Shown: in pieces, positions 30,209-53,030 of the stretch
Position numbering within the stretch: the stretch's first letter is position 1
Layout: every line of letters begins with the position of its first letter
Assembly (NCBI RefSeq): GCF_900103415.1
Contig: NZ_FMXB01000005.1
Span: 23,319-87,318, forward strand
Direction of reading: 5' to 3'
Length of the DNA: 64,000 bases
Source of the DNA: Methanobrevibacter millerae
Lineage (GTDB): Archaea; Methanobacteriota; Methanobacteria; Methanobacteriales; Methanobacteriaceae
The notes under the pieces: generated by a model
Seen by the model: only the letters and a program-made list of their open reading frames with translations
Database searches by the model: none
Told to the model about the DNA's origin: nothing
Made by a program: the position numbers and the translations under genes

Positions 30209-32518
30209 TTACTCACTTCTAACTATTTTTAATTGAATTAAAGGCATATCACACATGATTGGAAGGTTTTTGAAAGTGCGTTTATTCTCTTCTTTAATTT
30301 CATCACCTAATTTGTCCCATGAAACCAGATTAGGACTAGTTTTTCCTTCACCATTACCATATGTCCAACCTAAATTAACTCTAAGATTATACCAATTTTT
30401 ATGTTCGCGTTTAGCAAAGTATTCTAAATCTTTTTCATCAAACACTTCGATTTTTTCTCTTTTATCAGTTTTATCAACCAATTCATATTTTCTTTCTTTT
30501 AAGATTTTAACAATGAAGTCAGCTTGTTTATAATTTGAATATTGAATATGATTAGGTAACACATCAAATAATTCTTTAGGAGTACAATCGCTTATATTCT
30601 TTTCTACCCCATCAACTTCAACTGTCTTTACACCAGTTTCCTTTAAATAAAACTTATGCATTTCAAATGTAAGTAATCTTAGTCTTGAACGAACAACTTT
30701 TAAACCTATGGAATCTAAAAGAGAGGGGATATTCTTTACTGCATCAATATCATATTGCTGAATTTTAGGATCTAAATCATCCCATGGAACCAAATATGGA
30801 GTTTTAAGATTTACCTCATCCTTATCACCATCAGTTAAAGTCCAACCAGTATTTTCTTTTTCTTCCATCCATTCCATATGTTCAAAAATAGCTAAATCCG
30901 TGACTTCTTTTTTTAAAAATTCAGTTATAGCAGGCCTTTCATCAGATTTATCTGCAATTACACAACCAATCATGTCTAATTTCTTAGGAATAGACCTGGC
31001 TTGACGAATATTGGATAATTTTAAATCGGAACGTAATGAATTAAACATCTCTATTTCTATTTCTTCATCAATTTCATCTTCTTTTCCAGATTCAAATTCA
31101 TCATTTTTAGTGTCATTATACTGCAGATTAATTTTTCTTGCTAATTTTTCAAGGTTTCTAAGCAACAAATGCGGTGCATCAATATCAGATATATCCATAT
31201 CCAACATAGCTTCCTGTTCAAAATCTGTTTCGGGAATCGTTACTGACAAACCTTTAGGAAATACTGTTCTTTCAATATCCAAAACCTCATAAATAAACGC
31301 TTTTTTCTCTTTATGGAAACCCAAACCCATTGAACCACTATTTAAAATATACTCAACATCCATATTTGAATTGTCAATTGTAATATTTAAATCGTTGACA
31401 TGGTCTTTTTGTTTATCTATAACACCAAAAGGCTGACGGTTCCATTCCTGAAGTTCATCACATAAAATCAATAAGAATGCAATAGGATAAGATTCAACGT
31501 ACAACGGACCTAGAGAAAATGGATCTTTTTGTAATGTCTTATTATAATAGTTATGTAATAAAATAGCACTTGCACTATCTACAATTGGATAGAAAAAGAA
31601 ATCTTTATTTTTGGCATATTTCTGAATTAAGTTACCATATGAATTTAAAACTAAAATAGCTGAGAAAAATCCATGATCAATGAAATTATTTTCCTTCATA
31701 TAGGAAATAAAAGCATTCAAATGTTTTAATAAATCATTATATTGATTTTTATTAAATTTGAAATTATGAGCTATCTTATGAGCCATTATTTCCGTTGGTT
31801 TGAATAAATCAATGATTTTGGAATTATCATAGCGTGCACGATAGTTATCGGCAAAATCATAAGGTTCTAACCTTACAATAGAATTAAACTCATTGAAATC
31901 ATTAAAATCAATGCTCACCTCAACATCATAAGTATTTGAAATAGATTTAACACCATCATTTATAAATTTATTTAATTGTTTTCCTATAATCTCAAATGGA
32001 TAACCGATATCATGGAAAAGGGATGCAACACCCCAGCGATATAAAAATTCCTCATCAGACAATTCTTTATCTTTAGTTTTGTAGAATTTTTCATATTCGC
32101 TTTTTTCAACATAACTCTTAAAAACATCCCTATAATTTTTATTTTGAGAATAAATAGCTAAACCTAAAAGAAAAACATTAACTGAGTGAATAAAATGATC
32201 CCTCTGTCTTTCAATTAAATCTCCAGTTTTCTCTTCATAATCTTTCATTATATTAACTAAATCAAGAAGGGTGTTTGGTTCACTTACAAGATTACACTTT
32301 TGCTTTTTTTCTTCAGACTTATTTTCAGGAGTGATTTGGTAAATCATGAAAAAGGTTTGATAAATCTCAAATGCCGTATAATTATTCTCGTGTTCTAAAA
32401 AAACGTCAATTGCAGCAGTTAAGAGACCTTTATAATTATGACCATTCTTATAATCATCATATAATTCCAAGCCTTCAAAAAAGTCATCAACATATTTTTT
32501 CAAGTTATTTTCACTCAT
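30209..32518 (-). CDS. HD-domain protein with two C-terminal RyR domains (copy A)
   Basis: 769 residues. The N-terminal half has an HD-type metal site: RQRDHFIHS (His108/111), LFHDIGYP (His169-Asp170) and later LCDELQEW (Asp353), as in HD phosphohydrolases. Two copies of the RyR domain follow: residues about 536-607 (FEHMEWMEEKENTGW, TPYLVPWDDL, SLLDSIGLKVVR) and about 695-767 (REHKNWYNLRVNLGW, SPNLVSWDKL). Prokaryotic RyR domains are proposed to sense NAD-derived nucleotides in conflict systems, so a nucleotide-regulated hydrolase is a sensible guess. It is a paralogue of the gene at 32805. A TATA-rich spacer of about 286 bases separates them. Confidence 0.8.
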   Translation of the reverse strand: MSENNLKKYVDDFFEGLELYDDYKNGHNYKGLLTAAIDVFLEHENNYTAFEIYQTFFMIYQITPENKSEEKKQKCNLVSEPNTLLDLVNIMKDYEEKTGDLIERQRDHFIHSVNVFLLGLAIYSQNKNYRDVFKSYVEKSEYEKFYKTKDKELSDEEFLYRWGVASLFHDIGYPFEIIGKQLNKFINDGVKSISNTYDVEVSIDFNDFNEFNSIVRLEPYDFADNYRARYDNSKIIDLFKPTEIMAHKIAHNFKFNKNQYNDLLKHLNAFISYMKENNFIDHGFFSAILVLNSYGNLIQKYAKNKDFFFYPIVDSASAILLHNYYNKTLQKDPFSLGPLYVESYPIAFLLILCDELQEWNRQPFGVIDKQKDHVNDLNITIDNSNMDVEYILNSGSMGLGFHKEKKAFIYEVLDIERTVFPKGLSVTIPETDFEQEAMLDMDISDIDAPHLLLRNLEKLARKINLQYNDTKNDEFESGKEDEIDEEIEIEMFNSLRSDLKLSNIRQARSIPKKLDMIGCVIADKSDERPAITEFLKKEVTDLAIFEHMEWMEEKENTGWTLTDGDKDEVNLKTPYLVPWDDLDPKIQQYDIDAVKNIPSLLDSIGLKVVRSRLRLLTFEMHKFYLKETGVKTVEVDGVEKNISDCTPKELFDVLPNHIQYSNYKQADFIVKILKERKYELVDKTDKREKIEVFDEKDLEYFAKREHKNWYNLRVNLGWTYGNGEGKTSPNLVSWDKLGDEIKEENKRTFKNLPIMCDMPLIQLKIVRSE

Positions 32519-32804: not shown

Positions 32805-35051
32805 TTAATTCTTAACAATTTTTAAATCAACTTTTTTACATAAATCTGGCAGATTTTTGAATGTATTTCTGTTGGCTTCCTTATTTTCAAAATCAAGTGC
32901 CTTCCATTCAACCAGATTAGGATTTGTTTTAGAAATTTCGTCCTTGACTGACCCGTATTTCCAGCCTAAATTGACCTTGAGTTTGTACCAGGCTTCATGC
33001 TCCCTTTCAGCGAAATAGTCTATTGAATCCGGATCGAATCCTGTAATCGGTTCTCCAGGAGAATCAATGTCCACAACGGAATATCCCCTTAAGGACAAAA
33101 TCTTAATCAGGTAATCCGCCTGCTTATAGTTAGAGTATTTAATGTAATCCGGCAAATCCTCGAATGAAGTATTTTTGTCATGCAGATTATGCATTTCAAA
33201 AGTTAAAAGCCTGATTTTGCTTCTTACAACTTTCAAACCTATGGACTGCATTAAGGACGGTATTTCCCTAACAGGTTCCCTGTCAAATTCCTTTATTTCC
33301 TCGGTCAATGCGTCCCATGGAACGAGATACGGCGTAACAAGATTTTCAACATCCTTCTCTTCACCATATACCCATCCAGTACCTTCCTTCTCTTCACACC
33401 ATTCGTCATGCTCAAAAATTGCCAAATCCTCAACTTCCTCGACTGAAAATTCATTGATTGCCTCACGCTCATCGGACTCATCTGCAAGTTCACAGCCAAT
33501 CATGTCCAGTTTAATAGGGATTGACCTTGCCTGTCTTATGTTGGCTATCTTAAGCTGAGGAGTCAGTTCATCGAAAGGCTTTCTTTCATCATATTTCTTT
33601 TGGAAATCCTCATCGATTTCCTCACCATTGTCGATTTTATCCTGATATTGCTTTTCGATTAACTCATTATAATGCTCATGGATTAAAACGGCCAGGTTTT
33701 CAACATTTCTAAGCAGGATATCCGGAGCCTGTGAAGCCTCTTTAGTATCCTCACCCACAACGAAATGCTGTCTGACATCAGTGATTATTCTCAATCCAAA
33801 ATCGAATACACTTCTTATGGACAATACGTTGCTGAGAAGTTTTTCCTTATCCTCTGAAAAGCCCAGCCCCATGGATCCACTTTTAACGATATACTTCACG
33901 TCAAATGTATCGTCGTCTATTTTTAAAAGCAGTTCGTTTACGCGGCCCTTCTGTTTGTCCTTTATTCCGAAAGGCTGCCTGTTCCATTCCTGAAGCTCAT
34001 CACATAATATCAGCAGAAATGCCAAAGGTGACTGGGACGGATGGAGTTCCTTCAAGTTAAAAGGATCATTTTGCAAAACGTTTCTGTAGTAGTTGTGCAA
34101 CAGAATTGCTGATGCGCTGTCTACAATCGGATAGAAGAAAAAGTCATTGTTTTTCGCATACTTCTGTATCAGATAACCGTATGAATTTAAAACTAGAATG
34201 CATGAGAAGAATCCATGGTCTATAAATCCAAGCTCACCCATATAATTGACAAACTTGTCAAGATGCTTTGCAACATCGTTTACGTTGACACCTTCAAGAT
34301 CAGTGGAAATCTTATGGGCAACAATGTCAGTCGGCTTGAACAGGTTCAGGAATTTCGCTTCAGGATAAACTTCCGTAAAAGCGTCAGCAAACTCAGGATT
34401 CATTTTGACGATTGTATTGAACTCATTAAAGTCCTTAAAGTCGATTGCGGTGTCTGCACCATAAGTTGGAGAAATTGATTTGACACCATCATTTATGAAT
34501 TTCTTAAGTTGTTTACCAATGATTTCAACGGGATATCCGATATCGTGGAAAAGAGCCGCTACTCCCCAACGATATAGGAATTCCTCATTTGAAAAGTCTC
34601 CGTTTTCAAGCCTATAGTATTTTGTATATGGGCTTTTAATAACATATCTCTTGAAATATTCCCTATATTTACCGTTTTGAGCATAAATAGCCAAACCCAA
34701 AAGGAAAACATTGACGGAATGAATGAAATGATCCCTTTGCTTTTCAATCAGGTCTCCTGTGCTTTCTTCGTATTTTTTCATTGTCTTGACCAAGTCAAGA
34801 AGGGTATTAGGTTCCTTTACGATAGTCATTACCTTGTTGTTTTTTTCAGACTTGTCTTCCGCAGTAATCTGATAAATCATGAAAAATGTCCTGTAAATCT
34901 CATATGCATTATAAGAGTTTTCATTGTCTAAAAACACATCAATTCCGGCCTTCAACAAATCCTTGTAGTAATGACCATTCTTATAGTCATCATACAAGAC
35001 CAAGTCATCGAAAAACTTATCAATGTACTGCCTTAAATTGTTTTCATTCAT
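32805..35051 (-). CDS. HD-domain protein with two C-terminal RyR domains (copy B)
   Basis: 748 residues, the same architecture as its neighbour over the whole length: QRDHFIHSVNVFLLGLAIYA, ALFHDIGYPVEIIGKQL, CDELQEWNRQPFGI, then RyR repeats EHDEWCEEKEGTGWVYG...TPYLVPWDAL and REHEAWYKLKVNLGWKYG...NPNLVEWKAL. All HD residues are kept, so both copies may be active. Codon use looks less AT-biased than copy A. It starts 77 bases after the metallophosphoesterase and has GGTGT upstream of the ATG. Confidence 0.8.
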   Translation of the reverse strand: MNENNLRQYIDKFFDDLVLYDDYKNGHYYKDLLKAGIDVFLDNENSYNAYEIYRTFFMIYQITAEDKSEKNNKVMTIVKEPNTLLDLVKTMKKYEESTGDLIEKQRDHFIHSVNVFLLGLAIYAQNGKYREYFKRYVIKSPYTKYYRLENGDFSNEEFLYRWGVAALFHDIGYPVEIIGKQLKKFINDGVKSISPTYGADTAIDFKDFNEFNTIVKMNPEFADAFTEVYPEAKFLNLFKPTDIVAHKISTDLEGVNVNDVAKHLDKFVNYMGELGFIDHGFFSCILVLNSYGYLIQKYAKNNDFFFYPIVDSASAILLHNYYRNVLQNDPFNLKELHPSQSPLAFLLILCDELQEWNRQPFGIKDKQKGRVNELLLKIDDDTFDVKYIVKSGSMGLGFSEDKEKLLSNVLSIRSVFDFGLRIITDVRQHFVVGEDTKEASQAPDILLRNVENLAVLIHEHYNELIEKQYQDKIDNGEEIDEDFQKKYDERKPFDELTPQLKIANIRQARSIPIKLDMIGCELADESDEREAINEFSVEEVEDLAIFEHDEWCEEKEGTGWVYGEEKDVENLVTPYLVPWDALTEEIKEFDREPVREIPSLMQSIGLKVVRSKIRLLTFEMHNLHDKNTSFEDLPDYIKYSNYKQADYLIKILSLRGYSVVDIDSPGEPITGFDPDSIDYFAEREHEAWYKLKVNLGWKYGSVKDEISKTNPNLVEWKALDFENKEANRNTFKNLPDLCKKVDLKIVKN

Positions 35052-35127: not shown

Positions 35128-35895
35128 TCAATCCGTTATGAATTTCAACTGCCTTTGAATATCCTTCATTGATGTAATTTCCTTGGATAAGTCCAAATCA
35201 AGATATGTCTTTACTCTAGTTTGAAAACTTGAAGCCAAAATCATCTGTTTGCCGTATACCTTATAGGATTCAACCACGTTATGGCCGACAATCATGAATT
35301 TTGAATCAATGATGTCTAAAAATCTGGTTATGTCGTCTTTCGTATAGCCATAAATTGAATCATACCTGTTCCATAAAAAATCATCCAAAATCGGATTTAA
35401 ATAATCCCCATAAAAAATTTTCTCAAACGCTTCAATTGAATGAATCTTATCAGATGGTCCGGCATGTGAAATAAACAATCCATTGGACGTTTTTAAAAAA
35501 TAAGGCATCGTTTTAAAGAATTTAATATAATTCGTTAATGAAGGTTCCACAAATCCTTTCTTAAATGAGATTAGATTTGTAAACTTCCAAAGCAGATCCT
35601 CACCATTCTTATAAATATTCCTGTTTACGATGTGCGCCCATTCATGATTTCCCAAAAGGGTGTGGAAATTTGGATACTTTTGTGATTTTTTAATTGCGTC
35701 ATCCAATATTTCTAGGGATTTATCGTCTTCATGAATGGAATGAATAAGGTCTCCCGTAAAAACAATGTGAAAATCAGGGTCATTTTTATCCCATAAGCTT
35801 AAATAATGATTATAGTCATCAAAATCACCATGCAAATCAGTTACAACAATTAAACGACCATAATCAGGCAATTCGATTAATTTATCATTTTTCAT
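35128..35895 (-). CDS. Calcineurin-like metallophosphoesterase
   Basis: About 255 residues with all metal motifs: VVTDLHGDFDDY, VFTGDLIHS, LLGNHEWAH, ISHAGPSD and IVGHN. The ATG at 35895 has AAGGTGAT upstream. Related proteins include Ser/Thr protein phosphatases, which is notable next to a protein kinase, and ApaH-like enzymes. The start overlaps the last codons of a 46-residue ORF. Confidence 0.88.
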   Translation of the reverse strand: MKNDKLIELPDYGRLIVVTDLHGDFDDYNHYLSLWDKNDPDFHIVFTGDLIHSIHEDDKSLEILDDAIKKSQKYPNFHTLLGNHEWAHIVNRNIYKNGEDLLWKFTNLISFKKGFVEPSLTNYIKFFKTMPYFLKTSNGLFISHAGPSDKIHSIEAFEKIFYGDYLNPILDDFLWNRYDSIYGYTKDDITRFLDIIDSKFMIVGHNVVESYKVYGKQMILASSFQTRVKTYLDLDLSKEITSMKDIQRQLKFITD

Positions 35896-36025
35896 CTTCA
35901 TCACCTTCCATTAACTTTTCAAGTATTTCCATGACTTTTGACAATTCGGATTTTGAATTTAAATTTAAAAATCCGTCAGATTTATTTTTATTTAAAATAA
36001 CTGTAGGTTTCCTTGATTTTTTCAT
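35885..36025 (-). CDS. Small charged protein, 46 aa, unknown
   Basis: ATG with a good AGAGGT site, encoding MKKSRKPTVILNKNKS... and ending in an acidic helix (ELSKVMEILEKLMEGDEDEK). The stop overlaps the metallophosphoesterase start, which suggests coupling. A palindromic promoter lies directly upstream. No homology claimed. Confidence 0.65.
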   Translation of the reverse strand: MKKSRKPTVILNKNKSDGFLNLNSKSELSKVMEILEKLMEGDEDEK

Positions 36026-36087: not shown

Positions 36088-39000
36088 TTAATCACGCTCA
36101 TCAAGTTCATATAATAGACTGATTATTCCGAACAGTTCCACATAGTCATTATCGGCAAATGCCACGTTTGCTTTTTCAATCAATTCAGCTGCAAGCTTTT
36201 CATTATTTGTATAGACTCCTTCAAATTTTAAATTGAAAAAACATTCCTCGATAACATTGTCCCTATTCAATAAAACGTATTTTTCAATTAAATCGGAATG
36301 AAACTCCTCCAGTTCATTCAAATCATAATTTTCATAATCATCATCCATTTCAAACAGGCCATTTTCCTTTATTGCTTTCATTTTATTTTCCACATTTTCC
36401 AAAAGAACTGAATATCGGAAATCTCTTTTTAAATCCTCAACGTTGGATTTCAAATAATTCAGATAGATTGAACACTGATTTAATGCACTATTGTCTTTTT
36501 GAGCTATTTCAAATAACCTGCCAATATAATTTATCAGATCTTTATCGGAGTAATATGAATATTCATCAAGCCATTCCACTTCTTTAAGCAGCTTTAGATA
36601 TTGATTAAATAATTCTTTCAATGTGAAATCATTATCAGATATGCTGAATGAATCCCTTAAAAATGGAATGTAGGTGCTGTCGCCATTAATTGTCGCAGGA
36701 GATTTTTCATCGAGCGTCACTTTAGTATTTCCCCTATAAAGATTAACTGTCAATTCTTCATTAGGCAATTCAATATTGAATGTCGAATCAATATCCAATG
36801 GAATTTTACCTGATGAAAATTGATTATTTTTAAATTCAATCGAATAATCCAAAAATGAAAATTTATTGTCCAGACAGAAGACCTTTCCTTTAATTCTGTT
36901 GTTTTTATTGCTTAGAATTACGGAAAACTTTTCTTTTTTAATATTGATGGACGGTTTTTCTAAACTTCCAGCATATATTGCCGCACCCATCGAAACGACA
37001 GTCAACGGGTTTAAATCTGAGGTTATCTCAATATCAAATTCATCGCTCAACAATTCCCGAACAACTGGACTTAAACATGAACCTCCAACAAGAATCAGTT
37101 TTTCGATATTTTCCTCACCTAAAGAGCATTCATTTAATAAATCCATGCATAATTTAAAAGTATATTTTACCAAAGGCTCTATGCTTTTCTTGAAGTCCTC
37201 TTTCATTAAATTATAGTTAAAATCATAATCCTCAAAAAGATTATCGATTGATATATCTGCACATTCATTTTTACTTAATTCTTTTTTGGCCACTTCCGAT
37301 GCGTTTTTAAGTTTTGAAAATACCTCCAAATATTTCGGATTATCCTGTCTGAAATCATCCAGATTTAAATCATAGGCTATTTTTGGACGGAACAAATCAT
37401 TGACGATTTTCCAATCAAATGAATTTCCTCCAAGATTATCTAAACCGTTGGTTGCGAACTTTTCAATTTCACCACCATTATCATGAATTATGGTTACATT
37501 AAAGGTTCCGCCACCCAAATCATAAATCATCCAATAAGCATTGTCCTTTCGAAGGTTATATGCAATACTGACTGCAATGGGTTCTAAAATTAAATTATGG
37601 GATCGAAATCCCGCAATGTTGGCTGCATCATTGATTGCCTTTGTCTTGAGAGGATTGGAATTTGCCGGAACACAAATAACCGCATGTTCAACATCCACAC
37701 CACACCGCTTAAAAGCTGACAGCCTCAATTCCTTAAGTACCATGGCGGACAATTCTTCGGGAAACATTATCCGTGAAGATTCATTGAATTTAAATGGTAT
37801 CGGAAATCCCATATTCTGTTTAAATTCCGATACTGCATTTGGCGAATTATTAACAATCGCATTTCTTGCATTTATTCCTACCTGAACCCTGTCCTGATTA
37901 TCGATTAAAACAGCAGAAGGAGTAAATTCATCGCCAGTCATGTAATTTTTAATAATGACTGGATTTCCCTTGTTAAAATAGGAGATTACTGAATCAGTTG
38001 TTCCCAAGTCAATTGCGTAATCAATTGTATCCTGTTTTACTTGTTTGGCAGTTTTAAAATGCATTTTCATGTTTTGCTTCCATAAGGATAACTTGTATGC
38101 GTATTTGGATTTGATATTTGCGTCGCAAACGACTGCAAACTCCATTAAATTTGCAGCGTTCATCAGATTATTTGAATTGACCAAACGGATGGCTTCAACT
38201 ACGATTTCCTCAATGGAATATGTTTTTAAAATTGGAATGATATCTTTATAAAATTTTTTTATCTCATCATTTCTATCCATCAGACTTTCAAGCAGAACAA
38301 CTGACTTGAATAAACTGCCATGCTTTTCCAAATCTATAAAAATATTCCACAAATCAATATAATGGGCATATCTGCTTTTAAGTGACGGATTATATGCAAT
38401 AGCTTCATTCAGGAAATTGCAGGACAACTTATAATTTTGTCCTTTCAGATTAACGGTGAACGCCTTTGAAATCAATTTGACATCGGGACGCTTTGATTTC
38501 CATATTCTGAGAGTTTCAGAATAACATTTACGAATATCATAATCCTGTAAAACTTCAGATTCCAGCAGTTCAATAGCTTCCGGAAGTTTATTTTCACATT
38601 TTGCAAGTCGAAAAGCCTCTTTAATAGAATCATTAATGATATATTCGGAATATTCATCATTATAATCCTTAGAAAGATTATCCTGAGATATGATTTGTGT
38701 TGATTTATGCTTTTCAATGGCCTTTTCAACATCGGCTAAAAGTTCCCCGGCATCCAAATACCTGTTTTCCGGATTGAAATCCAAACATTTCAAAACGATA
38801 TTATCCAGGTCTTCAAATACTTTATCATTGTAAAAGCTTGGAGCGTTTAATGTTTTTTGCCAAGGTTTTAAATCAATTAACTCCTCATTGGAGTATTCCT
38901 CAACATCATAAGGATAGAGGTTTGTCAGTAACTGATAAAATATAACGCCGACAGCATAAATATCTGTTCTGGTTGATATGGACTTATTGAATATTTCAGG

Positions 39001-39594
39001 AGCCATGTACGGCCTTGTACCTGCGATGTCAATGTCTGAAATGCCTGTAGTGACTTCCTTTGCAAAACCAAAATCGGAAATTTTTATAATAATATCTCCG
39101 CAGGCATTGAAACTGAGTAAAACGTTGTTGGGTTTTAAATCACGATGAATGATGGGAGGATTAGCTGAGTGTAGTGTGTTTAAACCTTTAAGAATCTGTT
39201 TGACTAAATCCAGACTACGATTTAGCGGCATGAACATGTTATTTTCAGAAAAAGAATTTAAAAACTGTTCCAAATCCCCGCCGCTAACATATTCCATTAC
39301 AAAATAAGCATGATTTTTACCGTCCTCAAAACCGGAAATTTCAGCGGCATCATAAATGCTTATAATGTTTTCATGGCTAAGATGGCAGGCCAGCGAAACT
39401 TCACGAAAAATGTCTTTCTTATTGGTTGTGGCAGTTAATGGCTCCTTAACGATTTTCATTGCCATTAACTCATCCATATAATTATGATTTACAAGGTAAA
39501 CCTTTGCAAAGGATCCTTCACCCAGAAATTTTTTAACTTCAAATTTGCCATTAAAAAATTCTTCTATTTGGTGTTTAATTTCATCAAAGTCCAC
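36088..39594 (-). CDS. Ser/Thr protein kinase fused to Hsp70 (DnaK-like)
   Basis: About 1168 residues. Numbers count from the longest frame. The kinase has GEGSFAKV (29-36), Lys51, HRDLKPNN (154-161), DFG (178-180), MAPE (201-204). A helical region with repeated A-x-LLE...YA-x-x-LWK units covers about 310-515. Hsp70 follows: DLGTTDS (523-529), YDLGGGTFNVTI, LGGNSFDWKI, LVGGSCLSP, MGAAIYAG, then a beta substrate-binding part and a helical lid. The start is GTG at 39594 after GGTGGT. The phosphate-binding motifs of both ATPase units look intact. It sits 22 bases after an FHA regulator. I infer chaperone-linked phospho-signalling; no substrate can be named. Confidence 0.92.
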   Translation of the reverse strand: MDFDEIKHQIEEFFNGKFEVKKFLGEGSFAKVYLVNHNYMDELMAMKIVKEPLTATTNKKDIFREVSLACHLSHENIISIYDAAEISGFEDGKNHAYFVMEYVSGGDLEQFLNSFSENNMFMPLNRSLDLVKQILKGLNTLHSANPPIIHRDLKPNNVLLSFNACGDIIIKISDFGFAKEVTTGISDIDIAGTRPYMAPEIFNKSISTRTDIYAVGVIFYQLLTNLYPYDVEEYSNEELIDLKPWQKTLNAPSFYNDKVFEDLDNIVLKCLDFNPENRYLDAGELLADVEKAIEKHKSTQIISQDNLSKDYNDEYSEYIINDSIKEAFRLAKCENKLPEAIELLESEVLQDYDIRKCYSETLRIWKSKRPDVKLISKAFTVNLKGQNYKLSCNFLNEAIAYNPSLKSRYAHYIDLWNIFIDLEKHGSLFKSVVLLESLMDRNDEIKKFYKDIIPILKTYSIEEIVVEAIRLVNSNNLMNAANLMEFAVVCDANIKSKYAYKLSLWKQNMKMHFKTAKQVKQDTIDYAIDLGTTDSVISYFNKGNPVIIKNYMTGDEFTPSAVLIDNQDRVQVGINARNAIVNNSPNAVSEFKQNMGFPIPFKFNESSRIMFPEELSAMVLKELRLSAFKRCGVDVEHAVICVPANSNPLKTKAINDAANIAGFRSHNLILEPIAVSIAYNLRKDNAYWMIYDLGGGTFNVTIIHDNGGEIEKFATNGLDNLGGNSFDWKIVNDLFRPKIAYDLNLDDFRQDNPKYLEVFSKLKNASEVAKKELSKNECADISIDNLFEDYDFNYNLMKEDFKKSIEPLVKYTFKLCMDLLNECSLGEENIEKLILVGGSCLSPVVRELLSDEFDIEITSDLNPLTVVSMGAAIYAGSLEKPSINIKKEKFSVILSNKNNRIKGKVFCLDNKFSFLDYSIEFKNNQFSSGKIPLDIDSTFNIELPNEELTVNLYRGNTKVTLDEKSPATINGDSTYIPFLRDSFSISDNDFTLKELFNQYLKLLKEVEWLDEYSYYSDKDLINYIGRLFEIAQKDNSALNQCSIYLNYLKSNVEDLKRDFRYSVLLENVENKMKAIKENGLFEMDDDYENYDLNELEEFHSDLIEKYVLLNRDNVIEECFFNLKFEGVYTNNEKLAAELIEKANVAFADNDYVELFGIISLLYELDERD

Positions 39595-39615
39595 TAATAC
39601 CACCAAATGATGTTA

Positions 39616-40407
39616 TTAAAAAGAACAATAAATTACTGCTCCACCAACACCCCGGGATAATTTTAAAAATGAATTAGGTCTTAATTTAGTGGCTTTACCT
39701 TTTGGCACTTCAATATCACCAATGAATGTTCCGTTTGAACTGGCTTCATCAATAATGTACCAGCCATCATTTTTATAGAATAATCTTAAATGCGGCTTAG
39801 AAATATTTGAAACGGTATCGTAACTATTATCCAGAAGAATTGAAAATGACGCCAAATCCCCTTCATCGAAATCGGCTTTTCTTCCAATCAAAACACTTTC
39901 ATCTTGGCGAACCTTAAATGTTTTGCCTTTATCAACACCATTGAAAATCGTTAGAACGCAATGCTCGTCATCATGATATTTTTGATTGGAATCATATAAA
40001 TCAAAGAAAGTGAAAAGTTCATCTGATAAAAAGTTAATGTCTAAAAACAAATCATCGAAAGCATCCTCTTTTAAAGCATATGCCTTAACTGTGCGCTTGC
40101 CAACCTTATTAGGCACTTCCTTTTTAATAGAAATTTCACAGACCAAATTGGCATCAATCAGCTTTTTCATGTGTTGGCCCAACATTTGGGTGGTAATGTT
40201 AATTTTATAACTCTTTAAAAGAATTTCATTTATTTCACGAGAATATAATGGATTTCTTGAATTAATATTATTATATTTCTGATTATCCCTTAGAATTTCT
40301 AAAATAGAAAATCTTACTTTATTGTTTACGGCTGATAGCTTAACTGAAATTAAATTAGATTCATCTGAATCAATAATAACAGTTTTATCAACATTTGATT
40401 CAGTCAT
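39616..40407 (-). CDS. HTH-FHA fusion regulator
   Basis: 263 residues. A winged-helix part (about 20-105: VRFSILEILRD, SREINEILLKSY, MLGQHMKKLIDANLV) resembles ArsR-type regulators. A C-terminal FHA domain (about 145-262) has VLIGRKADFDEGD, SKPHLRLF, and DEASSNGTFIGD, the phosphothreonine-binding set (GR, SxxH-like, NG). This can link DNA binding to phosphorylation by the adjacent kinase, which is an inference from gene order. Confidence 0.85.
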   Translation of the reverse strand: MTESNVDKTVIIDSDESNLISVKLSAVNNKVRFSILEILRDNQKYNNINSRNPLYSREINEILLKSYKINITTQMLGQHMKKLIDANLVCEISIKKEVPNKVGKRTVKAYALKEDAFDDLFLDINFLSDELFTFFDLYDSNQKYHDDEHCVLTIFNGVDKGKTFKVRQDESVLIGRKADFDEGDLASFSILLDNSYDTVSNISKPHLRLFYKNDGWYIIDEASSNGTFIGDIEVPKGKATKLRPNSFLKLSRGVGGAVIYCSF

Positions 40408-40469: not shown

Positions 40470-41093
40470 TTAAATCGAACTACTTAAAACATCATGATAA
40501 TCTTTTAAATCCTGTTCACATAAGTTTAACTTCGCCATTAATTGCGTAACTAACGCATCGAGCAATACTAATGCAGAGATTTCAAAACCGCTGCCCATTA
40601 ATATTAATTCTAATGATTTTCCATCATCTAAACTAACAGATTCCTGCTTTAGTGATTCGATGATGATTTTTGCATCTGCTGTTTGGGCAAGGTCGCTTTG
40701 AGCATCTCCGCAAACGGTTAAAAGCTTTACATCATCCATTTGTGAATCTTCCACAATCTGGGTAATGGAATTGGATTTACCTGATTTTGAAATAATGATG
40801 ATAATATCCCCATCACGAACTGATGGAAGTATTGATTCATTAAATACATATACATAAAAACCCAAATGCATTAATCTCATAGCAAAAGACTTTGCAACAA
40901 AACCTGATCTTCCGGCACCTGCAAGAAATATTGTGGTTTCTCTTTTAGATGTTACACGTTTATTTGAAGCTTCCAGAATAATATTCATAAAGTGTAAAAT
41001 AGATTCTTCCTGATTTTTAATAACTGATTTGGATTCATTAATATTTTTTAGGATTTCATCGAAAGATAAATCCATATACTTTAATTCAGACAT
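40470..41093 (-). CDS. SIS-domain protein, 6-phospho-3-hexuloisomerase-like
   Basis: 207 residues. FLAGAGRSGFVAKSFAMRLMHLG (about 52-74) and IIIISKSGKSNSITQIV are typical of phosphosugar isomerases of the PHI type. It is 13 bases after the rtcB-like stop. It may be a true PHI for ribulose-phosphate metabolism; the context suggests a regulatory or accessory variant. Confidence 0.85.
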   Translation of the reverse strand: MSELKYMDLSFDEILKNINESKSVIKNQEESILHFMNIILEASNKRVTSKRETTIFLAGAGRSGFVAKSFAMRLMHLGFYVYVFNESILPSVRDGDIIIIISKSGKSNSITQIVEDSQMDDVKLLTVCGDAQSDLAQTADAKIIIESLKQESVSLDDGKSLELILMGSGFEISALVLLDALVTQLMAKLNLCEQDLKDYHDVLSSSI

Positions 41094-41105: not shown

Positions 41106-42212
41106 TTAAGCTTTAAAATTATAAACAGGCTTGGCAATATCCACTATTTTAACTGTATCATTAACATTATTTAAAATATTTTCCAATGACTTATATGCCA
41201 TCGGAGATTCGTCAATGGTGTTTTTTCCAATGGATGTTGAATAAATTCCTTTCATTGAATCTTTAAACTCATCGAGAGATAGAATTTCTTTCGCTTGAGA
41301 ACGCCTGTATAAACGGCCTGCACCATGGGGAGCGGAATAATTCCAGTCAGGATTACCTTTTCCCTCACAGATTAAAGATCCGTCACGCATATTAATAGGA
41401 ATAATAAGAGTTTCACCTTCATCAGCGGAAACCGCGCCTTTACGAAGAATCATTTTATCCATGTCAATGTAGTTGTGAATAGTCGTGAAATGTTTAGTGT
41501 AATCCATTCCGTATTCGCTTAATATTGTCTCTGCAATAGCTTTACGGTTTAATGAAGCATAATCCTGCATGATTTCCATGTCGTGAATGTAGTCATCAAA
41601 CAGCTTGCCCTCGCAGTAAATCAAATCCTTATTGGAAGCCATATTATGAAATCTTTTGAATTCCTTTAAAGCCTGATTTTGATAATATTCACAGACATCA
41701 GCACCTATTCTGCGGCTTCCTGAGTGAATTACCAAAATTAATTCATTGTCTTTTGTTTTATTAACTTCAATGAAATGATTTCCACCACCAAGAGTACCCA
41801 AATAGAAATTGCCTTCACTTCCGGCTTCAAGACCAAAATAACATTTCAGTTCCGTTAAGTCAAAATCCTTCATGAAATGATGGGGAACAACCCTTTTATT
41901 ATATCCATAAGGCACCTTGGAGCGAATGATGTTATCCAAACGTTTAAAATCAATTTCATCTGCGTCCAGGTAAAAGACTTCCATTCCGCAGCCGATGTCT
42001 GAGCCGACTAGATTGGGAATGACCTTGTCTTCGATAGTCATTGTAGTTCCGATTGTACATCCCATTCCTGCGTGAATATCCGGCATCATGCGGATTTTTT
42101 GGCCTTCAGCTATCGGCTGGTTGAGGAATTGGATGACCTGTGAAATGCTGTCGTTGTCGACATCGTCTGCAAAAACCTTGGCTGTTGCATATTTACCCTT
42201 CAATTCAAACAT
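41106..42212 (-). CDS. RtcB family RNA ligase, short divergent paralogue
   Basis: 368 residues, shorter than archaeal tRNA-splicing RtcB (about 480, without intein). Catalytic motifs are present: MPDIHAGMG, VGSDIGCGMEV (metal-binding Cys), LGGGNHFIEV, IHSGSRRIG, and APHGAGRLYRRSQA with the guanylylated His. It would join RNA ends with GTP in repair. It follows a palindromic promoter and probably heads the SIS-FHA-kinase run. Confidence 0.88.
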   Translation of the reverse strand: MFELKGKYATAKVFADDVDNDSISQVIQFLNQPIAEGQKIRMMPDIHAGMGCTIGTTMTIEDKVIPNLVGSDIGCGMEVFYLDADEIDFKRLDNIIRSKVPYGYNKRVVPHHFMKDFDLTELKCYFGLEAGSEGNFYLGTLGGGNHFIEVNKTKDNELILVIHSGSRRIGADVCEYYQNQALKEFKRFHNMASNKDLIYCEGKLFDDYIHDMEIMQDYASLNRKAIAETILSEYGMDYTKHFTTIHNYIDMDKMILRKGAVSADEGETLIIPINMRDGSLICEGKGNPDWNYSAPHGAGRLYRRSQAKEILSLDEFKDSMKGIYSTSIGKNTIDESPMAYKSLENILNNVNDTVKIVDIAKPVYNFKA

Positions 42213-42252: not shown

Positions 42253-42283
42253 TTTATATAAATAAAGTAAAGCATTTACTTTA
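42253..42283 (-). promoter_or_regulatory. Palindrome-TATA promoter motif
   Basis: TAAAGTAAA GCA TTTACTTTA is a 9-bp perfect inverted repeat (42263-42283), directly followed on the minus strand by TTTATATAA. It precedes the rtcB-like gene by about 40 bases and overlaps the stop of the 232-aa beta-helix gene. Confidence 0.7.
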
Positions 42284-42979
42284 GTCAAACCTGCAATCAG
42301 CAATGCGTAAATTATCATCATTTTCACTTTCTATGTGATTTCCATCGCTTGCAATGTTATTATTAAATTCACAACTCTTTACATTTAAAATTCTTTCATT
42401 ATAAATGGCCCCACCCTTAAAAGACACATTTTTATCGAATAAAGAGCCATGAATGAGCAATTTTGCCTTATTGTAGATTGCTCCACCTTCAAACTCCGAA
42501 CTGTTTGAATCAAAAATTGAATTTTCAATGTTTAAAATCGAATCATTATAAATAGCACCGCCATAATCTGATCTGTTCTCTTTAAAGACTGAATCTTTAA
42601 TATTGATTTTACCAGCTTTGTTTAAAATAGCTCCACCAGAAGCATTGCCTAAATCATCAGAGCAATTATTACTGAATTTACAGCATTCTATTGTAAAATT
42701 ATTAGAGTAATTTATTATGGCTCCGAAATCCTGTGAATATCCATTTTTGAATATTATATTTTTGATTGTGATATTTTTTCCAGAAACAACAAAAATACTG
42801 GATTTTTCATTTGCATCAATGACATGATTGTTTCCATCAATAATCAAATCATCAACATCCAAATTAATGCATTTTGAGTATTCTAACTCGTCATTATTAA
42901 AGATAACATCTTCTGTTAGAGTAATTTTTTTAGCTCCACTGTCAATCAATTCTTCAAATTCCTTGAAATTCACTATCAT
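42281..42979 (-). CDS. Right-handed beta-helix repeat protein, 232 aa, no signal peptide
   Basis: Begins MIVNFKEFEELIDSG followed by LIIDGNNHVIDANEKSS and stacked repeats (NITIKNIIFKNG, GAIINYSNNFTIECCKF, GGAIYNDSILNIENSIF). The repeats match parallel beta-helix proteins of the Methanobrevibacter adhesin-like type, but no leader or membrane anchor exists. The ATGA start overlaps the stop of the 1134-aa homologue. Confidence 0.85.
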   Translation of the reverse strand: MIVNFKEFEELIDSGAKKITLTEDVIFNNDELEYSKCINLDVDDLIIDGNNHVIDANEKSSIFVVSGKNITIKNIIFKNGYSQDFGAIINYSNNFTIECCKFSNNCSDDLGNASGGAILNKAGKINIKDSVFKENRSDYGGAIYNDSILNIENSIFDSNSSEFEGGAIYNKAKLLIHGSLFDKNVSFKGGAIYNERILNVKSCEFNNNIASDGNHIESENDDNLRIADCRFD

Positions 42980-45900
42980 AACCCTCCAAATAATGCATCT
43001 AAACCAAGACCTACTTCTTCTTCATCATCTTCAACATTTTTATACAATCCAATTTTTTTGTCTCTTAAAACATCTTTTTTATCTCCGTCAATTAGAATTA
43101 CTGTTCCTTTATTATTTATTAAACAATCGTTTTCAAATTCACAATTTTTTAATGTGAATTCTCCTGCATTAACTAAAGAGACTGATCCTTCAAAGAAACT
43201 ATTTTCTAAAGTTAAATTTTTTGAATTATTTATTTTTGCATCTTCAAAAATAATGTTTTTAAATATCACATTGGAATTTATATGAATTTCTTTAAAAGTA
43301 CAACAAATTTTTTTATTATTCCCATCAATTATTAAATCATTATTTATCTTTAATGAATCTTCTAGAAATATATTGGATTCTAAAATTAGGTTGTTTTTAT
43401 CAGATAAATCTAAACAAACGATTGATGAAACATATTTGACATCCAGATAATTTTTCAATGAATCATATTCTTCATCACGAATGTTTAAACGATTTGCCTT
43501 TATTAAAGCAGAAAAATGCTGATTGTTTTTGAAAATGCAACTTTTTAAATAAATATGATTATTTCCATTAATTAACTTATTCGGCAAAAATTCAAATGAT
43601 TTATTATTTTCAAAACAGCAATTTGAAATAAAAAGAGACATATTGACGAAAAATATTAATCCCCTTATAGAAATGGAATTATTTATAAAATTACAGCCAT
43701 CGAATGAAAATTTCCTATTGTTTACAGATGTTAATTTGCACAATGGTTCTACACAAACATTTCCATTAAAAATACAATTTTTAAAACGATTACTTCTTGA
43801 TGGACTAGAATCATCAATTCCAGCTATTCCCATCAGATTATTTTCAAAAACTGAATCTGAAATATCTACTGAAGAGTCACTGCAATAGATTAACCTATTG
43901 TTTCCATGATTTTTTAAGAAAGAAGAATTATTTATTTTAATTGCTGAATTTTTAATATAAATTATATTGGCATCAATACTTTCAATAGATTCAAATTCAC
44001 AAGAAAGAATATTTATAGAAGAGTTATGTGAACTTAAAGCCGTGCCAATTCCATCATCAAATTTTGAATTAATTAATTCCAAATGAGAATTTTCAATAAA
44101 TATTGAACTACTTTTATCAGAAACATCCTTTTGGGGTAATGAAACAATTGATTTGAAAATACAATTTTCCAGATTTATTTTCGCATCGGATGCATTTATT
44201 GCACCGTTTATGGTGTATAATGCATTTTTAAATATAATATTTTTCAAAGTAATGTTTTTAGATTCTATTTTAAAAATGCTTGATATTAAATTTCCATCAA
44301 TTGTATGTCCGTTTCCATCAATTACCAAATTATCTCTATTTATTTCAATTCCTTTATCGAAATAATCATTTTCTTCGTTTCCAACAATAATATCACAAGA
44401 TAATGTAATTTCAGGACAATCTTTTGAATTAATTAAATCATCAAGATATTTAAAGTTGTTTTTATTTGGAATAGTTTCCACGTCTGATATATAATGAATC
44501 TTTCCGAAATCATTTGATATGAAATTATTTAAATAGTTTTTTTGATTTTCTAAAATACAAAGCATCGAATTATTTAAAATAACATTGTCATTACTAAATT
44601 TGCAGTCATCCAAGGATAATATGCCTTTATTTGCAATAACATCCGAATCCCTACCCTCAAAATTGCATCTCTTTAAATTCATTTCACCTTCATTAAATAT
44701 TGCATCGCCACCACCAAAAACAAAATTATCTTTAAAATTTGATTGGTAAACCTCAATTTGGCCATGGTCATTATGTATTGCTCCACCATAATTAATCATA
44801 TAACTTTCGCCCAAATATTTACTGCAATTATCTTTAAAATTACATCTGAATATACAGATATTTCCATTGAAATTATAAATCGCACCACCATTGTGTCCTG
44901 TATGGTTATCTATGAAATCAGAATTTTTTATATCAATTGATCCTAAATGATTATAAATTGCCCCTCCATTATCAAGTCCAATAGCTGCAACATTTGTCTT
45001 GAACAAGGAATTTTCAATAAGTATATGACCATCATAGTTGTAGATTGCTCTTCCATTAACCCAATCACTAATATTTTCAAATGAACAATTTTCTATTTTA
45101 AGACTCCTTGATTTATTAAAAATAACACTCCCTTCATAAGACTCAGTGCTAATGTTTTTAAAATTGATATTTTTAAGAGTTATATTCTCCCCAATAATGA
45201 TAAAGCCACTGTATTTACTGCGATTTCCATCTAATGTATTTCCGCATCCGTCAATGACCAGATTATCTGCATTTATTGAGATAATACCCTTGATAAAAAA
45301 GTAATTATCCAAATTAATCTCTTTTTGATTGGATGAAATTAAATCAGTTAAAAATTGAGTATCTTTAATTATTTTAATATTCTCATCCATTAAGCCAATA
45401 TTACCCTCCAAAAGGATATTTTCAGTTGTTATGATTTGGTGATGTCCTTTAAATTTAGTATTTTTAATTATTATGCATTCATCTCTCTCAACATCATCAT
45501 GACTAGCCCTGTTAACAACAATATCATTTAATTCTTCCCTAAATTCACAAGCATCAAGTATTAATGTTGAATCTTGAGAATAAATAACTTTACCTACTTT
45601 TATAGAAGAATTTCCATCAAAATTAGAATTAATTAATTTAACAGTGGAATTTGAAGCATATATCGCACCCCCATTATGTGGAGACTTATTATTTGTAAAA
45701 TTACAATCACAGAAATTAACTGAACTGTAACTAATATCAATATATTTACTATCTGCAAAATTACAATCATCAAAATCAACAGAACTTTCTTGAATAATAA
45801 TCCTATTCCCTAAATCTTTAAAATCACAATTATTCAATTTTAAAAGAGATTTGTTGGATGAAATCCCAGAATAACCAAGATCAGGAACATTCTCAATAAA

Positions 45901-46380
45901 GCAATTATTTATCTCCAATTCAGAATCAATACATGATATTCCTGTGACATTACAATTATTCAGATATAATATGGAATTTTCACTGACTATACCTTCAATA
46001 GGAGACACTAAATTATTCTTTAAAAACTTTTTACAATTGATATGTGAATTAAATAAATTTAATTTAGAATCAGTAGCGAAAATATGATATGAATCAAAAT
46101 TACAATTTTCTATATTTAAATAACCTTTATTCTTTATTGTTGAGAGATTTTCAATATCCTTAAAGTTAATATTTTTAAAAGTAATATTGTCCCCACGAAT
46201 TTCAAATTCACAATTTACACTTTCAATAGTGTGATTATTCCCATCAATTATTAAATTATCAACATCCAAACTTATTTCAAATGATTTGCTATTATCTTCA
46301 TCAGAAATAAAAATATCTTCAGTTAAGACAATCTCTTCTGCTCCACTGTTAATCAATTCTTCAAATTCCTTGAAATTCAT
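42976..46380 (-). CDS. Right-handed beta-helix repeat protein, 1134 aa, no signal peptide
   Basis: Three copies of an N-terminal cap-plus-helix module occur (LIIDGNNHTIES, LVIDGCGNTLDG, LVIDGNGHTIDG; about residues 48, 371 and 665). They carry many N-x-x-F/GGAIY rungs. The start is MNFKEFEELINSG, identical in style to the 232-aa neighbour. There is no signal peptide, so it appears cytoplasmic. The tail GLGLDALFGGL is an odd glycine/hydrophobic end that could be a binding tag. Function unknown. Confidence 0.85.
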   Translation of the reverse strand: MNFKEFEELINSGAEEIVLTEDIFISDEDNSKSFEISLDVDNLIIDGNNHTIESVNCEFEIRGDNITFKNINFKDIENLSTIKNKGYLNIENCNFDSYHIFATDSKLNLFNSHINCKKFLKNNLVSPIEGIVSENSILYLNNCNVTGISCIDSELEINNCFIENVPDLGYSGISSNKSLLKLNNCDFKDLGNRIIIQESSVDFDDCNFADSKYIDISYSSVNFCDCNFTNNKSPHNGGAIYASNSTVKLINSNFDGNSSIKVGKVIYSQDSTLILDACEFREELNDIVVNRASHDDVERDECIIIKNTKFKGHHQIITTENILLEGNIGLMDENIKIIKDTQFLTDLISSNQKEINLDNYFFIKGIISINADNLVIDGCGNTLDGNRSKYSGFIIIGENITLKNINFKNISTESYEGSVIFNKSRSLKIENCSFENISDWVNGRAIYNYDGHILIENSLFKTNVAAIGLDNGGAIYNHLGSIDIKNSDFIDNHTGHNGGAIYNFNGNICIFRCNFKDNCSKYLGESYMINYGGAIHNDHGQIEVYQSNFKDNFVFGGGDAIFNEGEMNLKRCNFEGRDSDVIANKGILSLDDCKFSNDNVILNNSMLCILENQKNYLNNFISNDFGKIHYISDVETIPNKNNFKYLDDLINSKDCPEITLSCDIIVGNEENDYFDKGIEINRDNLVIDGNGHTIDGNLISSIFKIESKNITLKNIIFKNALYTINGAINASDAKINLENCIFKSIVSLPQKDVSDKSSSIFIENSHLELINSKFDDGIGTALSSHNSSINILSCEFESIESIDANIIYIKNSAIKINNSSFLKNHGNNRLIYCSDSSVDISDSVFENNLMGIAGIDDSSPSRSNRFKNCIFNGNVCVEPLCKLTSVNNRKFSFDGCNFINNSISIRGLIFFVNMSLFISNCCFENNKSFEFLPNKLINGNNHIYLKSCIFKNNQHFSALIKANRLNIRDEEYDSLKNYLDVKYVSSIVCLDLSDKNNLILESNIFLEDSLKINNDLIIDGNNKKICCTFKEIHINSNVIFKNIIFEDAKINNSKNLTLENSFFEGSVSLVNAGEFTLKNCEFENDCLINNKGTVILIDGDKKDVLRDKKIGLYKNVEDDEEEVGLGLDALFGGL

Positions 46381-46666: not shown

Positions 46667-47011
46667 ATGAAATTATTAAAAAGTTTTAAACATGCAATTG
46701 ACGGCATTATCAATACAACAGGCGTTGAGAAAAACTTGAAAATCCATTTCATAATAATGTTTTGCGTTATTATCTTAGGATTGATAGTTAAATTAACTTC
46801 TTTTGAATGGATCATTTGTATTGTTTTGTTTGGCCTTGTAATAAGCGCTGAAATGTTTAATACGGCCTTTGAAAAAACTCTGGATTACATCAACATGGAC
46901 TATGATGAAAAAATCAGATTCATCAAAGACGCATCAGCGGCGGCCGTTTTAGTCTTAGCCATCGCATCAGCAGTTGTCGGATTGATTATTTTTCTTCCAA
47001 AACTGATTTAA
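46667..47011 (+). CDS. Diacylglycerol kinase DgkA-like (lipid/undecaprenol kinase)
   Basis: 114 residues, an amphipathic N-terminus (SFKHAIDGI) and three helices. The family motif EMFNTAFEKTLDYI (about 64-77) with Glu and Asn catalytic residues, plus KDASAAAVL, is clear. It phosphorylates lipid alcohols with ATP at the inner membrane. The 3' end overlaps the convergent phosphatase gene by 26 bases. Confidence 0.92.
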   Translation: MKLLKSFKHAIDGIINTTGVEKNLKIHFIIMFCVIILGLIVKLTSFEWIICIVLFGLVISAEMFNTAFEKTLDYINMDYDEKIRFIKDASAAAVLVLAIASAVVGLIIFLPKLI

Positions 47012-47420
47012 CCTTTTTCAAGCAGCGGTAAATCTCACAAAAGCATGCATCATATACCTCATAGTCCCCGCCGGCAGGATCATTGATGTCCGGAGGATAT
47101 TCCTTTATGAATTGCCTGATTGTGCAGACTTTCAAATCAGGATAGAACATTTTTACCCTTCGAGTGTAAAACTCCTCCAGAGTTAAAACCAAATCCATAT
47201 CTGCAATATTGGAGTCCTTGAAGTTAGTTGCCCTGTGGGAAGTTATATCAATTCCATGGGATTTGCACACCTCGACAGTCACTTCGGAGGATTTTCTGCC
47301 GGTTATAGCAAAAATACCTGAAGAGTAAACTTCAATATCATCCGACACCATTTGCTTAAAAATAGCTTCAGCCATTGCACTTCTTGACGTATTTGCATAG
47401 CATACAAACATTATTTTCAT
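46986..47420 (-). CDS. Low-molecular-weight phosphotyrosine phosphatase / arsenate reductase-like
   Basis: 144 residues. N-terminal P-loop CYANTSR (C-x5-R, about 7-13) followed by SAMAEAIF, and the catalytic acid loop INDPAGGDYEVYD near residue 115. The second half has the typical C-terminal helix. Whether it dephosphorylates proteins or reduces arsenate is not clear. One of three in this window. Confidence 0.88.
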   Translation of the reverse strand: MKIMFVCYANTSRSAMAEAIFKQMVSDDIEVYSSGIFAITGRKSSEVTVEVCKSHGIDITSHRATNFKDSNIADMDLVLTLEEFYTRRVKMFYPDLKVCTIRQFIKEYPPDINDPAGGDYEVYDACFCEIYRCLKKVKSVLEEK

Positions 47421-51240: not shown

Positions 51241-51747
51241 TTAACTTTTTTTAGCCTTATTGGATAAATATTTTGAATAGCCATTTTCATCCAAATCAAT
51301 AAGGACATCTACTTTGTTACAGCCTATTTTTTCAGCAACTTTTTCCAAAGCCTCTTTTATCTCCAAAAAGCAATAATCATAATCATCATAATCACCACCA
51401 ATCGGATCTTTAATGTCCAAATCGTCATATCCTCCGGCATACTCCTTAATGGTATATACATTCAAATCAGGATAATATCTTTTCAAATCATTTCTGTGTC
51501 CCACTGTTGCTGTCAGGACCAAATCCATTTCAAAGACATCCAACTCATTGATATTTGTGGTTTTATGATTATTTATATTAATATTATGTCTAGAACATAC
51601 ACTTATTGCATGATTAGAAGCGCTTCCGCCGGAAAATGTAGAAACTCCTGCAGAATAAACTTCAATACCTTCAACCATGCTTTTAAATATTCCTTCAGCC
51701 ATAGCACTTCTGCATGTGTTTCCCGTACAAACAAACAATATTTTCAT
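51241..51747 (-). CDS. Low-molecular-weight phosphotyrosine phosphatase-like
   Basis: About 168 residues from the ATG at 51747 with GGGGGAG upstream. P-loop CTGNTCRSAMAEG (canonical), acid loop IKDPIGGDYDDYD, plus a basic C-terminal tail. It follows its paralogue (51790) by 42 bases. Confidence 0.9.
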   Translation of the reverse strand: MKILFVCTGNTCRSAMAEGIFKSMVEGIEVYSAGVSTFSGGSASNHAISVCSRHNININNHKTTNINELDVFEMDLVLTATVGHRNDLKRYYPDLNVYTIKEYAGGYDDLDIKDPIGGDYDDYDYCFLEIKEALEKVAEKIGCNKVDVLIDLDENGYSKYLSNKAKKS

Positions 51748-51789
51748 ATTACTCCCCCTTGCCTTATTCATATGATTATTTTTTTTCAA

Positions 51790-52242
51790 TCATTCGCAAT
51801 CCTCATCTACCAATTCGCCATGGGCTTCAATAATCCTTTCCAAAACCTCTTTAATTTCAAAATAGCAGACTACATAGTCTCCCAAACCGCCGTCTGAGGG
51901 ATCATCAATATCCAAATCATCACAGGCTCCACCATACTCTTTAATTGTATATGCATTTACATTGGGATATAGTTTTCTTATCTTATCCCTGTTGGATACT
52001 GTGGCGGTTAAAAGCAAATCGGCATTTTCAAAATCAACGTCACAGATATTGGTTGTCCTGAAATCCGTCAAATCAATGCCGTGTTTTCTGCAAACAAGAA
52101 TGGCATATTCATCGGCCTTTTCGCCGGAATATGTGGAAAAGCCCGCTGAAGAAACATCAATATCCCTCAGCATATCTTTAAATAACGCTTCGGCCATCGG
52201 GCTTCTTGAAGTGTTTCCGCTGCAGAGAAAAATTATTTTCAT
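51790..52242 (-). CDS. Low-molecular-weight phosphotyrosine phosphatase-like
   Basis: About 150 residues. P-loop CSGNTSRSPMAEAL and the acid loop IDDPSDGGLGDY. Similar to the other two copies. It starts right after the nucleotidyltransferase and is probably co-transcribed with it. Confidence 0.9.
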   Translation of the reverse strand: MKIIFLCSGNTSRSPMAEALFKDMLRDIDVSSAGFSTYSGEKADEYAILVCRKHGIDLTDFRTTNICDVDFENADLLLTATVSNRDKIRKLYPNVNAYTIKEYGGACDDLDIDDPSDGGLGDYVVCYFEIKEVLERIIEAHGELVDEDCE

Positions 52243-52246
52243 CATA

Positions 52247-52996: not shown

Positions 52997-53030
52997 GAAA
53001 TTCACCTGATTGAATATTTGATTGAAAATG

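Follow-up and report, generated by a model that had tools for sequence, protein, structure and literature searches.

In the 64,000-nucleotide stretch of DNA analysed here, from the gut/rumen-type methanogen Methanobrevibacter millerae (contig NZ_FMXB01000005.1; the whole stretch is called the window), a minus-strand gene encodes in one chain a Ser/Thr kinase and the nucleotide-binding domain (NBD) of an Hsp70, and it lies among genes for an FHA-domain protein, an unannotated microprotein and several enzymes (Table 1). The gene is a single open frame, 36088-39606 when read from a TTG (1172 aa) or 36088-39594 from a GTG. The start at 39594 agrees with the MDF... starts of relatives and lies 21 bp past the stop codon of the FHA gene; residue numbers of the fused protein are nevertheless those of the 1172-aa frame. 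Pfam matched both Pkinase and HSP70 (residues 532-883, E=4.2e-65) in this frame, bearing out the kinase-Hsp70 ATPase fusion that an earlier note had read from the letters alone and placed at 36088-39594. The kinase motifs are intact and conserved, comprising the Gly loop GEGSFAKV, K51, E69, HRDLK (154-158), DFG (178-180) and APE (202-204), the statements on DFG and APE being based on an alignment of relatives, and no other gene of the genome has a Pkinase match above the Pfam gathering threshold. The linker between the two modules is predicted to be helical, in agreement with the helical repeats that had been described there, with predicted local distance difference test (pLDDT) values mostly of 70-88 past residue 380 and lower before it. 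The AlphaFold2 model was calculated from 12 sequences with a mean pLDDT of 68.6 and a poor kinase part, and only its NBD, repeats and C-terminus were used; the NBD superposes on Hsp70 NBDs with TM values of 0.8-0.9 (Foldseek, TMt).

Table 1. Features of the fused gene and its locus (positions in the window).
Feature	Position	Strand	Evidence or remark
Fused gene: kinase, helical repeats, Hsp70-derived NBD, Ig-like domain, C-terminal helices	36088..39594	-	1168 aa from GTG
Hanks-type Ser/Thr kinase domain, residues 22-283	38758..39543	-	Pfam Pkinase E=1.6e-53; catalytic residues conserved
Helical-repeat linker, residues 326-511	38074..38631	-	AlphaFold2 helices; conserved in fused and split kinases
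Hsp70-type NBD, residues 527-883	36958..38028	-	Pfam HSP70 and Foldseek
Codon of N703, equivalent of catalytic DnaK D201	37498..37500	-	residue comparison with unfused relatives and DnaK
Ig-like beta domain, about residues 890-985, directly after NBD	36652..36939	-	AlphaFold2 model and alignment
C-terminal helical region, residues 996-1168	36103..36621	-	homologous to lid-side helices of split Hsp70s
FHA protein: Thr9 tail, winged-helix-like domain, FHA domain	39616..40407	-	adjoins fused gene in 14/14 loci
Thr9 codon, proposed phosphosite	40381..40383	-	invariant Thr of disordered N-terminal tail, 16/16
Conserved 46-aa microprotein, unannotated, MKKSRKPTVILN..., proposed phospho-ligand of the FHA domain	35885..36025	-	17/17 fused loci
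Calcineurin-like (PPP-type) phosphoesterase	35128..35904	-	also at many split loci
Protein with HD-like and two RyR domains	32805..35051	-	domain scan
Second HD-like and RyR protein	30209..32518	-	domain scan
SIS-domain protein (HxlB-like)	40470..41093	-	
Short RtcB-family RNA ligase	41106..42212	-	also at unfused sister loci

Searches covered 139 genomes of the family, and the residue, deletion, tree and locus comparisons took in 14 fused copies. At the position of the catalytic Asp of DnaK, D201, the fused copies have N in 11 cases and H, T or S in one each, and all 22 comparison proteins have D (13/13 unfused relatives and 9/9 DnaK). D8, T11, K70, E171, D194, G196, G197 and T199 (DnaK numbering) are kept in 14/14 fused copies, T12 and G198 being minor exceptions among the ATP-site residues checked. 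The earlier claim that both ATP-using modules have intact motifs thus holds for the kinase and fails for the Hsp70 half, in which N703 occupies the D201 position. Since the D201-equivalent Asp contributes to hydrolysis in established Hsp70 biochemistry, the ATPase of the fused protein would be expected to be slow or silent. The C-terminal alignment showed that the Ig-like domain, which ends near DEKSPNSI, and the FIPYLRQSF segment with the helices that follow it are common to fused and unfused proteins. The roughly 100-130 residues that lie between these landmarks and hold the client-binding domain SBD-beta, placed after the Ig-like domain in the unfused relatives, are absent from every fused copy, a clean internal deletion with homologous flanks on both sides in all 14. 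In line with this, a DnaK SBD-beta hidden Markov model (HMM) matched most unfused copies at E values from 1e-5 to 0.05, the weakest match being at 0.16, and all fused copies gave values above 0.8. Because SBD-beta is deleted and the catalytic Asp replaced in 14/14 fused copies, we rejected a working Hsp70, and these comparisons indicate that this half is an Hsp70-derived ATP-binding module on the kinase and not a working chaperone. To judge from sequence, there is hardly any doubt about the anatomy itself: one chain with intact kinase motifs and an Hsp70 NBD devoid of both the catalytic Asp and SBD-beta.

Full-length single frames of the fused gene (1161-1210 aa) were found in 17 genomes of the genus and contig-edge fragments in four more, and the 16 other full-length copies are 53-68% identical to that of the window. 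Two other genera encode kinase (about 530 aa) and Hsp70 (741-823 aa) in two neighbouring genes, which lie downstream of the same FHA gene and, at the loci that have them, of RtcB and SIS; these split kinases match the fused protein over residues 1-515. The split loci L063 and L065 have the full RtcB-SIS-FHA set, L064 has FHA only and L066 is without surviving flanks. All 14 fused copies fall on one side of the kinase and NBD trees, with the split pairs of the RtcB-SIS-FHA locus next to them, and the support for the fused clade is 100/100 in the NBD tree and 68/81 in the kinase tree. These results indicate that the fusion has a single origin, from adjacent genes and inside this archaeal family.

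A more distant paralogous operon encodes a ClpB-type ATPase, a kinase, a helical protein of 440-590 aa, a GrpE-like protein and an Hsp70 of about 840 aa, often with a calcineurin-like enzyme. The GrpE-like call has weak Pfam support in 2/10 members (best 1.8e-4), and a J-like identity of the 440-590 aa protein, which is encoded between the kinase and GrpE-like genes of split operons and resembled a J protein by eye, was discarded for want of Pfam or PDB profile support. The unfused operons of this kind (L067, L068, L070-L072, L074 and L094/L095) are archaeal, with genes for a ClpB-type ATPase, a helical-repeat kinase, a GrpE-like protein, a full Hsp70 and a helical protein with a membrane anchor, or, in one genome, bacterial, with kinase, helical protein, GrpE-like and Hsp70 genes. 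The phylum sample around a Planctomycetota metagenome-assembled genome gave one cluster, in which unfused kinase, helical protein, GrpE-like and Hsp70 genes follow in the same order; this bacterial cluster adjoins Type I restriction-modification (RM) and transposase genes. No kinase-Hsp70 fusion was found in the sampled Clostridia class. Among the records listed in the plasmid search there were only Hsp70/DnaK-region matches, 0/223 records covering 80% of the query, and of the two Hsp70 clusters with short upstream genes that we looked at, one lay near Zorya genes. Outside the window, the same genome encodes a separate 591-aa Hsp70 with an intact SBD-beta, which adjoins TPR proteins (G000:C5, about 117000-119000; L055 7031-8806).

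The gene directly upstream of the fused gene at each of the 14 loci encodes the FHA protein, and the window copy is the sole FHA match of the genome. Across the family genomes, FHA occurs in 39, the kinase (E<=1e-12) in 40 and both in 33, against 11.2 expected (Fisher p=4e-19; the relatedness of the 139 genomes is not corrected for), and FHA is present in 21/21 genomes that have the fused gene, be it whole or as a fragment. The earlier note had proposed the FHA neighbour as a readout of the kinase, and the pairing of the genome's sole FHA with its sole above-threshold Pkinase makes that link stronger than the note could know. The N-terminal half of the FHA protein is predicted to form three helices and a beta hairpin in a winged-helix pattern and gives weak HTH_20, HxlR or ArsR matches in most members, with no significant PDB sequence match; on this modelled evidence a winged helix is probable. 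For the FHA half the best structural match is ArnA of Sulfolobus, and the top folds for the protein include 6hc1 (the DgcB FHA with its phosphorylated N-terminal peptide), 6i2p (GarA) and EmbR (2ff4). Of the conserved phosphothreonine-pocket residues (Arg, Ser, His, Asn-Gly), R176, H206, N225 and G226 are invariant in the FHA relatives, and the SxxH Ser varies. In the otherwise variable tail, with a pLDDT of about 33, Thr9 (in TVIID) is invariant in 16/16 proteins and the position +3 from it is hydrophobic in 16/16. Kinase and FHA protein together look like a self-contained phosphorylation switch within a stress or antiviral gene cluster.

The microprotein (MKKSRKPTVILNKNKSDGFLNLNSKSELSKVMEILEKLMEGDEDEK) is encoded in a frame between the fused gene and the calcineurin-like gene, and at 17/17 loci a homologue lies downstream of the fused gene; M, T, L-N and F-L are invariant among these proteins. 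Its codon positions 1 and 2 differ by 0.31 on average and position 3 by 0.56, the excess at the third position being what one would expect if the frame is translated. In genome G019 the fused gene has a second copy (G019:C27, L044 6336-9856 (+)), which is broken by frame changes and still has the microprotein downstream. The TVILN of the microprotein resembles the TVIID of the FHA-protein tail, and T[VIEF][IVL][IL][DN] occurs in only these two proteins among 88 window open reading frames of at least 40 aa, a descriptive count for a pattern written after seeing both. FHA domains commonly prefer phosphothreonine with a defined +3 residue, often a hydrophobic one, which suggests that the two motifs may both be ligands of one FHA domain.

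From these features we infer a mechanism in which the retired Hsp70 half would act as the regulatory half of the kinase. The NBD would bind ATP with little or no hydrolysis, and it and the helical repeats would together form an allosteric or docking module on which the activity of the kinase depends. Two threonines would be phosphorylated by this kinase: Thr9, in the tail of the FHA/winged-helix protein, and the microprotein's Thr8. The FHA domain would then bind the phosphothreonine-x-x-hydrophobic motif of its own tail, switching the winged-helix half, or alternatively the phosphorylated motif of the microprotein, which would be a competitor or an output. The calcineurin-like enzyme, where present, may reset the switch, and what finally responds would be the locus itself (RtcB RNA ligase, HD-RyR proteins), in its expression or its activity, as part of a stress or antiviral response, whose cue may be stress or a virus. 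Taken as a whole, from the regulatory Hsp70 half through the reading of Thr9 and Thr8 to the neighbours as output, this model appears to us evenly poised between right and wrong. Several points weigh against it. The kinase-tree support for one fusion origin is modest, and the winged-helix call is based on a medium-confidence model and weak HMM hits. The Ser of the SxxH motif is S, G, A, D or other residues among the FHA relatives, which could change the binding of phosphothreonine. The calcineurin-like gene and RtcB are missing from about half of the fused loci and so are not core. Finally, no microprotein turned up in the 900 bp that follow the unfused Hsp70 genes; it is either specific to the fused form or placed elsewhere in unfused loci.

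The neighbours bear on what such a switch would control. HD-RyR proteins are present at 12 of the 14 fused loci, the SIS protein at 10, the calcineurin-like enzyme at 8 and RtcB at 7. The RyR proteins have tandem RyR domains, and H548 and W551 of the 32805-35051 protein are placed like the RyDEP ligand residues H75 and W78; their HD-like part has the invariants H108, H111, H169-D170 and D351, with Pfam HD matching 4/12 (best 8e-4). Since RyDEP homologues and RyR domains bind or cleave the immune signals 2'/3' cyclic ADP-ribose (2'/3'cADPR) in phages (2026 preprint, PMC13232231), the window HD-RyR proteins may handle ADP-ribose-type signals. RyDEP shares with them an RyR domain with an H..W motif but is a phage protein, whereas the window proteins are host-encoded and join tandem RyR to an HD-like domain. 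One RyR-protein relative (L031 15572-18784 (+)) has two TIR domains in front, possibly a signal producer and RyR in one chain.

These genes also invite the reading of the locus as an antiviral module, which overlaps our model on purpose: the RyR/HD proteins and RtcB would be effectors or repair enzymes and the kinase-FHA pair their control switch. We hold this to be a serious possibility that falls somewhat short of even. The link of RyR domains to 2'/3'cADPR and the relative with two TIR domains speak for it, although the TIR fusion is absent from the window; so do the Type I RM methylase gene near the bacterial kinase/GrpE-like/Hsp70 cluster and the occurrence of HSP70s without peptide-binding domain in conflict systems (PMC7159879), although PADLOC recognises no system at the locus, its kinase hits being to the kinase domain alone. 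Neither the fused gene nor the RyR proteins have a relative in IMG/VR, which speaks against the module and led us to reject a viral origin. The defence kinases PD-T4-6 and MADS MAD6 were rejected as identities, with matches essentially confined to the kinase domain (about residues 10-350) and a MAD6 score of 153.6 bits for a cut-off of 460. Pfam found no TIR or ThsA domain, looked for as marks of Thoeris, in the window operon.

The earlier note had offered chaperone-based explanations, and both are weakened because each needs the client-binding domain that the fused proteins have lost. In the first, the Hsp70 half would still sense misfolded protein and drive the kinase; the coupling of ClpB-type ATPase, kinase, GrpE-like protein and full Hsp70 in the paralogous unfused operon suggests an ancestor probably engaged in protein quality control, but with SBD-beta and the catalytic Asp gone from 14/14 fused copies, and the fused locus lacking both GrpE-like and ClpB genes, we consider such a sensor improbable. 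That operon is the one remaining tie to protein quality control, and an indirect one. In the second, the kinase would modify clients held by the Hsp70 half, which the union of both in one chain would favour; the domain that would hold them is recognisably kept in most unfused relatives and excised in all fused copies, so that this reading has very little chance of being right. An assembly or frameshift artefact, for which the split versions (L063-L066) might be cited, was rejected as close to impossible, since no stop or frame break of the kind the earlier note had warned of interrupts the full-length frame in 17 genomes and all 14 copies examined share the same deletion and the lost Asp.

Further genes of the window were noticed. 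A RlaP-type nucleotidyltransferase (named for RNA repair) adjoins two small proteins (51241-53005 (-)), at least one of them a low-molecular-weight (LMW) phosphatase (51241-51789), and a further LMW phosphatase lies at 46986-47420; together with RtcB they look like an RNA-repair neighbourhood. Directly upstream of RtcB there are two beta-helix adhesin-like proteins (42281-46380 (-)), and ClpP (61059-61643) is followed on the plus strand by a ClpX-like ATPase (61660-62748), a ClpXP pair that is unusual in archaea.

Literature searches for the operon returned nothing specific; part of the cluster may be described in work by Burroughs and Aravind (2016) on RNA repair systems. A chain with an N-terminal Ser/Thr kinase and C-terminal HSP70 homology has been reported from Pirellula (gi|32474490; BMC Genomics 2005, PMC1262709). 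Compared by description, that case is bacterial and a single report without operon or substrate-domain analysis, whereas the archaeal fusion arose inside its own family. HSP70s without peptide-binding domain are also known from bacterial GAP1-N2 GTPase conflict systems (Kaur et al. 2020, PMC7159879), where they are associated with GrpE and DnaJ/TPR and, at other loci, with kinases. Despite this likeness, the window locus differs in being archaeal, in the fusion of kinase and HSP70 and in its FHA partner, and no GTPase was found among its neighbours scanned with Pfam. With FHA proteins of the GarA, OdhI and DgcB type, whose N-terminal tail is phosphorylated, and with EmbR (FHA plus DNA-binding) the system shares the FHA domain, a Thr in a disordered N-terminal tail and a kinase next door; it differs from them in the winged helix N-terminal to FHA, the separate microprotein with a similar motif and the Hsp70-fused kinase. 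In the literature searched we did not find described the archaeal within-family origin, the before and after states at one locus, the loss of both the catalytic Asp and, by excision, the client domain, the pairing of one kinase with one FHA protein, or the microprotein.

At its widest, and as a speculation that we rate as rather unlikely, the locus would be an archaeal phospho-signalling system of immunity or stress, in which an Hsp70 stripped of its client site regulates, as an ATP-binding module, the sole typical Ser/Thr kinase of the cell, the same phosphothreonine motif is written on the FHA/winged-helix regulator and on the microprotein, and HD-RyR enzymes acting on ADP-ribose-type signals and an RtcB that repairs cut RNA are under its control; such a system would be previously undescribed. 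Given the company of RyR, TIR and RtcB, one could test directly whether the locus is linked to nucleotide immune signalling in archaea. With one kinase, one FHA reader and one microprotein in the genome, the system would offer a rare complete phosphothreonine pathway of a methanogen that could be rebuilt in vitro. The fusion points to a chaperone turned into a regulatory module of a kinase, with both states preserved at the same locus: before, separate genes with client domain and catalytic Asp, and after, a fused gene without either.

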